64,000 nt of DNA from Sunxiuqinia elliptica (GTDB taxonomy: Bacteria; Bacteroidota; Bacteroidia; Bacteroidales; Prolixibacteraceae). Shown in pieces: positions 35,407 through 39,374 of this stretch (the first letter of the stretch is position 1; each line of letters starts with the position of its first letter). The notes beneath the pieces were generated by a model that did not search any database, was not told where the DNA came from, and saw nothing but the letters and a program-made list of their open reading frames with translations. The stretch is from the NCBI RefSeq assembly GCF_900113005.1, contig NZ_FONW01000013.1, positions 1-64,000 of the forward strand, written 5' to 3'. A program made the translations under genes and the position numbers.

Positions 35407-36723
35407 TTATAATTCAACCTTTAGAATGGTGTCCACCTCCTGTCGTTTGTCGTAAGGCAGATGAATCAAAGTTCCAAATTCAGTGTTCTTGTATTTTGCT
35501 TTTGTGCCATCATCAAAAAACGTAATTGATTTAATTTTCTGCTCAAGCTTTGGAAGTAAAAGATTGTCTTCAGCTAACTGAAGAACGTGTACATAAACCG
35601 TTTTGCCTTTCTGAGTTGTAGCCCCCCAATGCAACGGTTTGATCGGCCCTTTACGGGTACCATAAATTGATTCTCCGTATTTGTCCAACCATCTTCCCAT
35701 AACCATTAAGGTATCTACATTCTCCGGCTGAATTTCGCCATTAGGCATTGGGCCGGTGTTTAAAAGGAAGTTTGCGCCATAACCAGCGGCTTTAACCATG
35801 GTTTGGAGCAGGCGTTTGGTAGACTTGTAGTTATGATCTTTAAGATTAAAGCCCCAGCTACCATTCATGGTTTCGCACATTTCCAATGGAAGTTCAGAGA
35901 TTGTTCCGGTTTGATTAAAGCCCATGGTATTTTCACCAGGAAGATCACGCTCAAACATCTGGAAATCTTCGCCAGGGAATGGTGCTTTGTGGTGATTACT
36001 ACCAACTAGAGCTCCTGGTTGAAGTTTGTGAATTAAAGAATAGGTTTCGTCCAAACGCCAGTTGGCATCAATTTGATCCCACATGCCATCGAACCAAATA
36101 CCTCCAACTTCACCGTAGTTGGTTAAAAGTTCAGTAAGTTGTGCGTTCATGTAGTCAATGTATTTGTCCCAATCTCCATGCTGAGGACGACCTGTATAGC
36201 CCTGTCCTGTTCTTCCTCGAGGATAATAATCCGGATGATGCCAGTCAAGCTGCGAATAGTAGAAGAATAGTTTGATACCTTCTTTATCGCAGGCCTCTTT
36301 GAGTTGTTGGAGTATATCCTTGCCATATGGTGTACGATCTACAATGTTGTAATCGCTTACTTTTGAGTCATACATGGCAAATCCATCATGATGCTTGCTG
36401 GTGATTGTAATGTATTTCATCCCGGCTTTTTTGACCGTGGCAACCCACTTGTTCGGATCGAATTTGGTTGGATTGAAAAATGACGGGAGTTTTTCGTATT
36501 GCTCAATCGGAATCCGTTTTTGGTTCATAATCCATTCGGCAATTCCTTGATCGCCTCCTCCGGCCATCACAGAGTAGACCCCCCAATGTATGAAGAGGCC
36601 GAACTTGGCATCTTGAAACCATTCCCTGTTTTTCAGGTTTTCATCGGAAGGGGTGTAACTTTCTTGCGAATGTCCAATCATTGTTAAAAATGCAAACAAG
36701 AGTAAAATGCTTATTTTTTTCAT
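35407..36723 (-). CDS. Secreted alpha-L-fucosidase, glycoside hydrolase family 29
   Basis: This 438-aa protein has a signal peptide (MKKISILLLFAFLTMIGHS). The GH29 catalytic domain spans about 30-350: FGLFIHWGVYSV, ITITSKHHDGFAMYDSKVSDYN, and the nucleophile Asp in GGIWFDGMWDQ (about residue 213). It hydrolyses terminal alpha-L-fucose from glycans, probably in the periplasm or at the surface. It lies downstream of and co-directional with a sulfatase-fold protein (gap 223 nt), so the pair may act on a sulfated fucan-like or mucin-like glycan. The general acid/base is not certain from sequence alone. Confidence 0.94.
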   Translation of the reverse strand: MKKISILLLFAFLTMIGHSQESYTPSDENLKNREWFQDAKFGLFIHWGVYSVMAGGGDQGIAEWIMNQKRIPIEQYEKLPSFFNPTKFDPNKWVATVKKAGMKYITITSKHHDGFAMYDSKVSDYNIVDRTPYGKDILQQLKEACDKEGIKLFFYYSQLDWHHPDYYPRGRTGQGYTGRPQHGDWDKYIDYMNAQLTELLTNYGEVGGIWFDGMWDQIDANWRLDETYSLIHKLQPGALVGSNHHKAPFPGEDFQMFERDLPGENTMGFNQTGTISELPLEMCETMNGSWGFNLKDHNYKSTKRLLQTMVKAAGYGANFLLNTGPMPNGEIQPENVDTLMVMGRWLDKYGESIYGTRKGPIKPLHWGATTQKGKTVYVHVLQLAEDNLLLPKLEQKIKSITFFDDGTKAKYKNTEFGTLIHLPYDKRQEVDTILKVEL

Positions 36724-36910
36724 TTTTAGTAAGTTTAGATTTACTGTGCTGTGTTGTGCTGATAAATTTATAAGAAAGAATTGATAAAGCCTTAGTGAAT
36801 GTTATAAAATATCTTTTTGTTGGCAAAGGGCTTTTGGGGAGAGATATAAAAGGTAATTTTATGGGAATCAGTCTGGAATAGACTTTCATAAACCAAAAGG
36901 ATAAACAGCA

Positions 36911-36946: not shown

Positions 36947-38335
36947 TTAGTTCGATTGAATGATTAGTCTTGCTTCTTCGGACTTAGTCCATGGTACCGA
37001 TTCATTTTTACGAATATGTGCCTGAAGTAATTGGTAGAGACGTTGGTAGTGCTCTGAACTTTTTCTCAAAGGGATCTGTTCGTAGGAGTCGGTGGTAAGA
37101 TTGTATAAACGCAAATCTTCATGTGGGTTGTTTTGCATGAGTTTGTAGGCACCTTGTCTTACCGCGTAGCTTGCTTTTCCTTCAAATACCCCACCTTGTC
37201 GACAGACCCAAAATAGTGTTCTTTCTTTTTGTAAAGGGAGTCCTTTTAGAATGCAGGAGGTCAAGCTACTTCCGTCTAAATTGTTGGTTGGCTTCAATTC
37301 ACACATTTCGCAAATCGTTGGAAAGAGGTCCATTGTTATGCCAACTTGGTGACAAATGCTTTGTCGTTTTATTTTATCTCTCCAGAAAATGCAGGTTGGC
37401 ACCCGGATTCCTCCTTCGTATAAATCTTGCTTTCCACCTCTGAGTTTTCCATTTGAACTTCCGGTTGCCAAAAGTCCACTGTTTTCAGAACTAAAAATAA
37501 TAATGGTGTTTTTCAGTTGATTGGTGTTGTTCAAAGTCTCTAAAATACGTCCAATGCCATCGTCCATGTGCTCAATGGCGGCAATGTTTTTGGTTCGATT
37601 TCTGCTTAAATGCGGATGATCTTTTTGTACTGATTCAACCCATTCTTCTTTTGGGGAAGGAAATTCTCCGGGAGCATTATAGGCCAGAAATAGAAAAAAT
37701 GGTTTTTCTGCCTCGGCTTCACGATTAATGAAGTCAATCGACCAATTAGAAAAAAGGTCAGTTGTGTGTCCCGAAGGGTTTATCGAGTTCTCATTAAAAC
37801 GCATGCTGCCGTTGTTCTGGCTTAGAGGTCTATCTGCATCGAATTGATCGCCTAAAAAACCCATGAAAAGATCAAAGCCTTGCTCGTTGGGTAGGTTTGG
37901 AGATTCAAAACCCAAGTTCCACTTTCCGATTAAAGCGGTTGTGTAGCCCGATTGTTGCAGGTAACCCGAAAGGGTGGTGTCAGCTCTGAAGTAGCCCCAA
38001 TTATTGGAGAGATCTTTTCGGATAACCCCCGGTACTCCTACCAGCCCGGGATACTTTCCAGTAAGAAAAGAAGCCTGAATTGGAGAACCAACGCTAGAGC
38101 TGGTATAAAACTCAGTCATCATGACTCCTTTGGCAAAGAGATCATCGATATGTGGAGTTTGAACATCGCGACCTCCGGTTATGGAGATATCTCCATAACC
38201 CAAATCGTCAGCCATAATGACCAGAATATTGGGTTTTTTAACGTTTTTATTGGTAGCAGAATAAGCGGAGAGCGGATTAAGCATGCATGCTCCCGAAATC
38301 CCAATTAATAGAATAATGGCGACATAATGTTTCAT
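36947..38335 (-). CDS. Sulfatase-fold protein lacking the formylglycine motif (predicted pseudo-sulfatase)
   Basis: This 462-aa protein has a signal peptide, then a full-length sulfatase fold from NILVIMADDLGYGD (metal Asp pair kept) to the C-terminal subdomain. The activation motif, normally C/S-x-P-x-R before A-x-x-x-T-G, reads G-S-P-I-Q-A-S-F-L-T-G, so both the formylglycine precursor and the Arg are gone. Other active-site positions are changed too: GKWHLG is GKWNLG, the His of NAPH is Gly (NAPGEF), and the Asp of SDN is Glu (SSENSG). The Lys of RGGK is kept. I checked each codon on the minus strand. The frame is intact at normal length, so it is probably a maintained binding or regulatory protein rather than a decaying gene. 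It is upstream of the GH29 gene. Confidence 0.88.
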   Translation of the reverse strand: MKHYVAIILLIGISGACMLNPLSAYSATNKNVKKPNILVIMADDLGYGDISITGGRDVQTPHIDDLFAKGVMMTEFYTSSSVGSPIQASFLTGKYPGLVGVPGVIRKDLSNNWGYFRADTTLSGYLQQSGYTTALIGKWNLGFESPNLPNEQGFDLFMGFLGDQFDADRPLSQNNGSMRFNENSINPSGHTTDLFSNWSIDFINREAEAEKPFFLFLAYNAPGEFPSPKEEWVESVQKDHPHLSRNRTKNIAAIEHMDDGIGRILETLNNTNQLKNTIIIFSSENSGLLATGSSNGKLRGGKQDLYEGGIRVPTCIFWRDKIKRQSICHQVGITMDLFPTICEMCELKPTNNLDGSSLTSCILKGLPLQKERTLFWVCRQGGVFEGKASYAVRQGAYKLMQNNPHEDLRLYNLTTDSYEQIPLRKSSEHYQRLYQLLQAHIRKNESVPWTKSEEARLIIQSN

Positions 38336-38639
38336 GGCTTCGCTAGCGTAAAAATGGCTAAAAGAATTGTCACTAAAGTTATTAAATCTTAAGAAGCTTT
38401 GTAGGCTTTTTACATCATATTATTCTTAAAAAAGATTAAATGGCGAATTCGCCCTGTAAGTGGATTATGATGATCGGTAAATGGGGAGAAGAGTGTGCTG
38501 GAAAGTAAGCTTAAGAATGGGGTATTTTGTGGTTTTTTTGGGATCAGAAAATTATTTGTTTAAAAAAAATACTAAAATATTAAACAAACTTATTTTTTAC
38601 TTGTTGGTTTAGTTTGAAAACAATTGAAAGGAAAAGACA
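38336..38639. promoter_or_regulatory. Divergent intergenic region with a 12-bp palindrome
   Basis: About 300 nt between the sulfatase-fold gene (minus) and folE (plus). It contains the perfect palindrome GGCGAATTCGCC at 38442-38453, GC-richer than its surroundings. Promoters for both genes must lie here; no coding frame is evident. Confidence 0.45.
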
Positions 38640-39374
38640 ATGAAAGTAAACGGCTTTGTAAAAACAAATCGACCAACAACTGCGAAGAACAGCCGTGTAA
38701 ATGGCCATCTGGTTCAGAATAGAGTGGATAACGATTTGATTGGAGATAATCATATTGCCACTTCAATTGATACTCCCATGCGTTCGGACGCATTTAAATT
38801 GACCGATAATGAGAAAATGGAAATCATTGAAGATAAGTTCCGTGAAATTATGGATACCCTCGGGCTTGATTTGAATGATGATAGTTTGAGTGGAACTCCG
38901 CATCGTGTGGCAAAAATGTTTGTTCAGGAGATTTTCAATGGCTTAAATCCAGCAAATAAACCCAAGATTTCGGTCTTTGAGAATAAGTTTAAGTATGGCG
39001 AAATGTTAGTGGAGAAGAACATTAACCTGAACTCAACTTGTGAGCATCACTTTTTACCAATTGTTGGAAAGGCTCACGTTGCCTACGTGTCAAGTGGTCA
39101 GGTGATTGGTTTGTCTAAGATTAATCGTATTGTTGACTATTACGCTCGCCGCCCGCAGGTTCAAGAACGGTTGACAGTTCAGGTAGCTAATGAGTTGAAA
39201 AAAATTCTGAAAACAGAGGATGTTGCTGTTGTTATCGATGCAAAACACATGTGTGTGTCATCCCGAGGGATTGAAGATGAAAGCAGTTCAACGGTTACTG
39301 CAGAATATGGAGGTATATTCAAGGACAAAGAACGAAAAGAAGAATTTTTAAAATATGTGACGTTGGGAAGTTGA
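38640..39374 (+). CDS. folE: GTP cyclohydrolase I with an N-terminal extension
   Basis: This 244-aa protein has a catalytic domain from about residue 55 (MEIIEDKFREIMDTLGLD) to the end. Zinc ligands are visible in NSTCEHHFLPI (Cys, His) and KHMCVSSRGIEDESS (Cys), and the site includes GLSKINRIVDYYARRPQVQERLT. It opens the GTP ring to form dihydroneopterin triphosphate for folate or other pterins. The first roughly 45 residues are polar and not part of the fold; starting at the ATG at 38778 would remove them. A terminator follows, so it is monocistronic. Confidence 0.95.
   Translation: MKVNGFVKTNRPTTAKNSRVNGHLVQNRVDNDLIGDNHIATSIDTPMRSDAFKLTDNEKMEIIEDKFREIMDTLGLDLNDDSLSGTPHRVAKMFVQEIFNGLNPANKPKISVFENKFKYGEMLVEKNINLNSTCEHHFLPIVGKAHVAYVSSGQVIGLSKINRIVDYYARRPQVQERLTVQVANELKKILKTEDVAVVIDAKHMCVSSRGIEDESSSTVTAEYGGIFKDKERKEEFLKYVTLGS

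Follow-up and report, generated by a model that had tools for sequence, protein, structure and literature searches.

A sulfatase homologue between folE and a fucosidase gene

The window, meaning the whole stretch of 64,000 nucleotides analysed here (positions 1 to 64,000 of contig NZ_FONW01000013.1 of Sunxiuqinia elliptica), carries on its reverse strand an open reading frame of 462 codons that runs unbroken from ATG to stop and encodes a homologue of the family S1 sulfatases, referred to below as the pseudosulfatase. The divergent neighbour is a gene that we take, from its sequence, to be folE (GTP cyclohydrolase I), and a GH29 alpha-L-fucosidase gene follows 223 bp downstream on the same strand as the pseudosulfatase (Table 1).

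Table 1. Features of the pseudosulfatase locus, in window positions (residue equivalents in AtsA numbering)
Feature	Position	Strand	Remarks
GH29 alpha-L-fucosidase gene	35407..36723	-	Pfam Alpha_L_fucos, 345.7 bits
CAGCACAACACAGCACAG, 18-base direct-repeat element just upstream of GH29	36744..36761	-	two CAGCACA half-sites
Pseudosulfatase gene	36947..38335	-	462 aa; S1 sulfatase domain and C-terminal subdomain
K302 (Lys375)	37430..37432	-	kept in window and two orthologues; His in G001
E284-N285 replacing D317-N318	37481..37486	-	orthologues: Thr-Asn, Thr-Asn, His-Thr
G223 replacing active-site His211	37667..37669	-	Gly in 4/4 genus members
K138-W-N140	37916..37924	-	Lys113 kept; His115 replaced by Asn (Asp in G001)
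G83-S-P-I-Q87 replacing C-x-P-x-R (fGly nucleophile and its Arg)	38075..38089	-	S-S-P-T-Q in three genus orthologues
D43-D44, calcium ligands Asp13/Asp14	38204..38209	-	kept in window; D44 is Asn in three genus orthologues
GATTTAATAACTTTA, 15-base block upstream of pseudosulfatase start	38374..38388	-	common to four carriers, at most one difference each
folE (presumed), divergent neighbour	38640..39374	+	marks the orthologous site in other genera

The block GATTTAATAACTTTA was not found upstream of the intact orthologues in two genomes of other genera, G016 and G015. It may be the promoter or leader of the pseudosulfatase, and its sharing among the carriers suggests that expression has been kept. 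The element CAGCACAACACAGCACAG is present, with at most one difference, in all five genomes of the genus that have this GH29 gene (the window's genome, G006, G003, G001 and G002), and one other copy within two mismatches was located in the window's genome (C5:75802). Because G002 has the element without a pseudosulfatase, CAGCACAACACAGCACAG is assigned by its distribution to the GH29 gene and not to the pseudosulfatase, and it is a possible operator or leader.

Upstream of folE, at about 38575-38625 on the reverse strand of the window, AACCAACAAG and TTTGTTTAAT occur together in six of the seven genomes of the genus, with matching places in L131-L133, L171 and L172 and none in G002; this stretch is probably the control region of folE itself. 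Further variation was noted around the locus. In G001, a radical SAM gene judged by eye to be anSME-like (L133:4840-6039) adjoins the GH29 gene, two genes from the pseudosulfatase; no such gene was seen at that place in the window, G006 or G003. In G005, a hutI-like gene is broken up into three ORFs (L172:10005-11253). An FtcD-like ORF is 348 aa long in G004 and G005 (L171:3696-4742, L172:11330-12376), compared with 563-570 aa in G001, G006 and the window.

Predicted fold and replaced catalytic residues

The window protein matches the Pfam Sulfatase model (PF00884) over positions 1-297 of 301 at 159 bits (cut-off 25) and carries SGSH_C as a second, C-terminal domain; in an NCBIfam search no model scored above its cut-off. 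Its N-terminus is hydrophobic, and the helix at residues 3-17 is likely a signal peptide, which would make the product a secreted protein. An AlphaFold2 model built from 25 aligned rows reached a mean pLDDT of 87.0 and a pTM of 0.88; pLDDT fell below 50 at residues 14-31 and 168-175, and confidence was also low in the block 221-230. The top Foldseek match was the S1_19 sulfatase ZgCgsA (9hh3, E 6.4e-39), and VIA-align ranked Ps i-CgsB (6b0j) first (Z 49.9, rmsd 2.5 over 416 residues, 27% identity). Based on the model confidence and these matches, a complete S1 sulfatase fold is predicted at high confidence, and both homology (PF00884) and the sulfatase fold over the full length place the protein in family S1.

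The nearest solved structures belong to the S1_19 carrageenan sulfatases (Ps i-CgsB 6b0j, PsS1_19B 6psm and ZgCgsA 9hh2), which are of similar length and share the two-domain fold; 9hh2 is closest by sequence (E 1.5e-60) and 6b0j by fold. The window protein is 26-32% identical to these structures and differs from them in that the fGly cysteine, its arginine, the active-site histidine and the aspartate are replaced. Subfamily S1_16 (9fo1; BT3057 and BT3796) is also near (9fo1, E 5.6e-51, Z 46.6), but unlike S1_16 the window protein is without the catalytic set. Nearness to S1_19 and S1_16 is here a statement about solved structures and not about subfamily phylogeny.

For the residue-level comparison, 96 intact relatives served as the reference set, of which 15 belong to the clade formed by the window's own taxonomic family and 81 lie outside it. 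Starting from 109 rows, we left out nine distant ones (L041-L045 and L047-L050), which gives the count of 96 plus four pseudosulfatase rows. The window protein has Asp at Asp13 and Asp14, Gly at Cys51, Gln at Arg55, Lys at Lys113, Asn at His115, Gly at His211, Glu at Asp317, Asn at Asn318 and Lys at Lys375. All 96 relatives carry Cys or Ser at Cys51 (95 Cys, 1 Ser), and each retains Arg55, His211 and Asp317. Given this uniformity in the intact relatives, the replacements at Cys51, Arg55, His211 and Asp317 are, judged on the alignment, far from chance. The activation motif C/S-x-P/A-x-R is absent from the window protein and from its three orthologues in the genus, and in place of the active-site His211 and the base His115 the window has Gly and Asn. 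The available part of the family survey by Barbeyron et al. (PMC5066984) gives Arg55, His211 and Asp317 as 99% conserved in 4058 S1 sequences; Arg55 is replaced in 11 of these, once by Gln, and 19 have Glu at Asp317.

The Pfam match and the residue columns confirm the original prediction of a full-length sulfatase homologue with an intact frame in which the fGly site and further catalytic residues are replaced, and also its observation that the metal DD and the RGGK lysine are kept in the window (D43, D44 and K302). Among the replacements that it listed, Gly, Gln, Gly and Glu stand out against the 96 relatives; GKWNLG in place of GKWHLG, however, is not diagnostic. Asn at His115 occurs in 13 of the 96 otherwise intact relatives, and since they share it GKWNLG is ordinary variation that proves nothing alone; it was discarded as a sign of a dead enzyme. 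The 13 intact sulfatases (L061, L063, L064, L067, L069-L071, L076, L100, L103, L120, L038 and L039), seven of them from Aquiflexum, Cyclobacterium and Algoriphagus, carry a natural variant of the elimination base.

Conservation of at least 97% in the 96 intact relatives is reached by 93 columns. The four pseudosulfatase rows all keep the conserved residue in 65 of these and depart from it, in one row or more, in the other 28. Catalytic or metal positions account for nine of the 93, His115 not included. Changes in all four rows affect 4/9 catalytic or metal columns versus 5/84 others (one-sided Fisher p 0.004), changes in any row 7/9 versus 21/84 (p 0.003), and the window row alone gives a borderline 4/9 versus 13/84 (p 0.055); these p values are a guide only, as the four rows share ancestry and columns and rows are not strictly independent. 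The five non-catalytic changes common to all four lie at M164, R172, P225, P229 and R378 (at least 97.9% conserved in the 96 relatives), with P225 and P229 in the same stretch as the lost histidine, just after it. These changes argue against the old substrate pocket having simply been retained.

Collectively, an enzyme homologue without the conserved catalytic motifs was found, which is how the available part of PMC10211241 defines a pseudoenzyme, and the window protein is very likely without sulfatase activity. The loss of catalysis is specific to this gene in its genome, as an anSME is present and the motif C-x-[PA]-x-R occurs in 32 of the 35 sulfatase ORFs examined; a loss through a missing maturation enzyme was thereby ruled out. 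The genome has 36 sulfatase matches, of which L177 was missed by the seed profile. The three motif exceptions are the window gene, L178 (313 aa, a distant family member) and L012 (G000:C15:839958-841064), which an in-frame TAG divides into a 223-codon and a 308-codon piece, each carrying sulfatase motifs; L012 would be either a decayed gene or an assembly error. One anSME and seven PF03781 matches scored above cut-off, the latter counted together, whether true FGEs or others.

Orthologues, origin and selective constraint

Searching 61 genomes with the protein gave a full-length match in each of three further genomes of the genus (57%, 57% and 53% identity), so that four of the seven genomes covered for this genus have an orthologue (the window's genome, G006, G003 and G001). 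Arg55 to Gln and His211 to Gly are common to all four. At the other sites the species differ: Cys51 is Gly in the window and Ser in the three orthologues, and Asp317 is Glu, Thr, Thr or His. The three orthologues additionally lack Asp14 (Asn), and G001 also lacks Asn318 and Lys375; the calcium-site residues Asp13, Asp14, Asp317 and Asn318 thus read D,D,E,N in the window, D,N,T,N in two of the orthologues and D,N,H,T in the third. The expected homologues with G-x-P-x-Q turned out to be S-x-P-x-Q proteins, G-x-P-x-Q being confined among the four to the window, and the concern that the replacements might be unique to one strain is answered by the three orthologues that share the changes at Arg55 and His211.

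All four frames are intact at 455-470 aa, even though as many as 48% of residues differ between the proteins, and the gene order of divergent folE, pseudosulfatase and co-directional GH29 is the same in all four carriers; the G003 genome is only 71% complete, yet the locus is present. A sequencing, assembly or frame artefact has a negligible probability given like replacements and equal gene order in four separate genomes, and an artefact or a single-strain oddity was ruled out by the orthologues. In G002, folE and GH29 are kept with two unrelated genes in between and no pseudosulfatase; the place of the latter (L170:2174-3716) is taken by an ORF of 375 aa, amidohydrolase-like by eye, and one of 137 aa. 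G004 and G005 have folE and neither pseudosulfatase nor GH29. As it is absent from three of the seven genomes, the pseudosulfatase is dispensable.

Wider-clade searches used A1 at E <= 1e-150, with at most 11 candidates scored per genome in the family and at most four in the order and class, so a copy may have been missed. In the family, 16 of 140 genomes matched, four of them of this genus, and no further pseudosulfatase copy was found; the 14 loci of the other 12 genomes all retain C/S, Arg, His211 and Asp317. The order search matched 3 of 393 genomes without a new pseudosulfatase copy, the extra one, G399, being intact with Ser, and the class search matched 1 of 395, the window itself. None of the best 80 of 132 named-contig relatives is a pseudosulfatase. 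The best reading of these searches is that, within the genomes covered, the pseudosulfatase is found only in this genus.

In a tree of 53 of the 109 rows, from which the 14 motif columns had been removed, the four pseudosulfatase rows form one clade (support 100/100), whose stem measures 0.93 changes per column and which nests within a clade of 19 rows from the same taxonomic family (100/97); the deepest rows (L041, L044 and L049) are long and of uncertain placement. In G016 and G015, which belong to other genera of the family, an intact relative with 49-50% identity to the window protein adjoins folE. Because intact versions sit beside folE in two other genera, catalysis was probably lost in situ.

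Selective constraint could be read from G006 and G003, the sole pair with unsaturated dS (about 1.3) for the pseudosulfatase, and one that does not include the window. By the Nei-Gojobori count its dN/dS is 0.097 (bootstrap 0.065-0.134), compared with 0.063 (0.039-0.092) for GH29 and 0.034 (0.017-0.058) for folE; other estimators gave 0.09-0.13, 0.05-0.07 and 0.03-0.04, respectively. The value for the pseudosulfatase is 1.5 to 2 times that for GH29, and the bootstrap intervals of the two overlap. For the pairs that include the window, dS of the pseudosulfatase is saturated (NG86 gave no dS, and ML dS values of 16-26 were left unused), and an ML fit for GH29 in G000/G001 (0.93), an outlier against the other estimates, was likewise set aside. 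With a dN/dS of about 0.10 in G006/G003, the product is still constrained. The pseudosulfatase nevertheless evolves fast, since the window protein is 52-57% identical to its three orthologues, below the 77-80% of GH29 and the 80-81% of folE. The idea of a retained fold without the fGly apparatus in a pseudoenzyme clade, and of purifying selection acting on it, has therefore held up, with four of seven genomes, a support of 100/100 and a selection estimate from G006/G003.

Possible roles and relation to known sulfatases

On balance, we consider it probable that the window encodes a full-length, folded S1 relative that has lost catalysis and is kept for a non-hydrolytic binding or partner role, probably in the glycan pathway of GH29. 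That this amounts to a genus-restricted pseudosulfatase clade with a new non-hydrolytic role as sensor, adaptor or GH29 partner, its origin traceable through the intact relative that occupies this site elsewhere, is a more tentative proposal. An S1 sulfatase akin to the carrageenan-type enzymes of S1_19/S1_16 would have sat beside folE in the ancestor of the family. In the ancestor of the genus, fGly catalysis would have been lost (Arg55 to Gln and His211 to Gly, with Cys51 and Asp317 gone too), and the protein would then have been kept as a full-length folded product while the remaining active-site positions drifted separately in each species. Its present role would be that of a non-hydrolytic binding or partner protein in the periplasm or at the surface, probably within the same glycan pathway as the adjacent fucosidase.

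The original prediction had, tentatively, pictured the protein more specifically as one that binds sulfated glycans and works with the fucosidase. A lectin whose old pocket binds sulfated fucose or galactose and feeds GH29 would agree with the adjacency of GH29 in all four carriers and with the retention of both active-site lysines in the window and two orthologues. Three of the 15 intact relatives in the family clade (L035, L149 and L156) likewise have a GH29-like gene beside them, with 29-32% identity to the window's, a hint of an earlier association with fucose-containing glycans inside the family; no match to the window's GH29 was found beside the other 90 intact loci searched (flanks up to 6 kb, often 1.5 kb). 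However, Arg55, His211 and Asp317 are lost in all four proteins, the calcium ligands are eroded in the orthologues, the five further near-invariant positions are changed throughout, and the model is of low confidence at 168-175 and 221-230. The sulfate site being damaged in this way, the binding claim is not supported and such a lectin appears rather unlikely. The partnership with GH29 fared somewhat differently: the adjacency is there, but because GH29 persists in G002 with its own upstream element and without a pseudosulfatase, the link appears loose and weak.

The long stem and end branches of the tree, the faster evolution than GH29 and folE, a dN/dS above that of the neighbours (its interval overlapping that of GH29), the gene's absence from three of seven genomes and the species-specific drift at active-site positions would all be expected of a slowly decaying gene with little function left, its frames still open through slow decay or through folding selected against toxicity. 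Four intact frames of 455-470 aa at such divergence, a dN/dS of about 0.1 where dS is about 1.3 and the upstream block common to the four carriers nonetheless make decay unlikely.

A further alternative is that the protein remains catalytic as a member of the alkaline phosphatase superfamily but uses another chemistry, for example with a Ser nucleophile acting on phosphate or sulfate esters. The superfamily includes members with Ser/Thr nucleophiles, and candidates here are S84 or, in the three orthologues, the Ser at the Cys position. S84, K138 and D43 are kept in all four proteins, and the window keeps D43, D44, N285 and K302, with E284 as a possible metal ligand. Ser can also be matured to fGly by anSME, according to the available parts of PMC10154612 and PMC6388578, and an anSME is encoded in the genome. 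A new active site should be conserved, however, and the four proteins do not share one set of metal ligands: the three orthologues have Asn for D44 and Thr (two) or His for E284, and G001 lacks both N285 and K302. The arginine given as 99% conserved in S1 in the available part of PMC5066984 is gone in all four. Retained enzymatic activity of this kind is thus quite improbable.

Possibly inactive S1 sequences have been described before, so that, going by the available part of PMC5066984, the window protein is not new as a kind. That source flags as possibly inactive nine sequences from Lentisphaerae and Planctomycetes with Ile or Leu at Arg55, and mentions Gln at this position in Aspergillus niger and Lys in a fungus. 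These sequences are likewise short of a catalytic residue, one of them with the same Gln. In the part of the source available, only the Arg is reported as changed, whereas four or five residues are replaced in the clade described here, which belongs to another phylum (Bacteroidota); the earlier cases are given there without synteny, clade or selection test, all three of which are provided here. In the open PMC literature, covered by titles and the starts of abstracts and with most subscription journals outside it, no paper dealing with a bacterial pseudosulfatase turned up, and no function described for one. The periplasmic domain of YejM/PbgA/LapC, a membrane protein of Enterobacteria, has a sulfatase-related fold and regulates by binding. 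In the NCBIfam search it matched the window protein weakly, at 22.9 bits where the cut-off is 825; there is no orthology, and YejM is called a metalloenzyme in the available part of PMC7576196.

If the preferred reading of a catalytically lost but selectively kept S1 relative is true, the locus would provide a pseudoenzyme case inside the largest sulfatase family. Sulfatase counts, which run to dozens per genome, are used to infer which sulfated glycans a bacterium eats. As a full-length and well-scoring PF00884 match can be without the catalytic set and still be selectively kept, counts that are blind to the fGly motif would overstate this capacity. Further, the intact relative at the same site would offer a before-and-after pair for a non-enzymatic role gained by the sulfatase fold.
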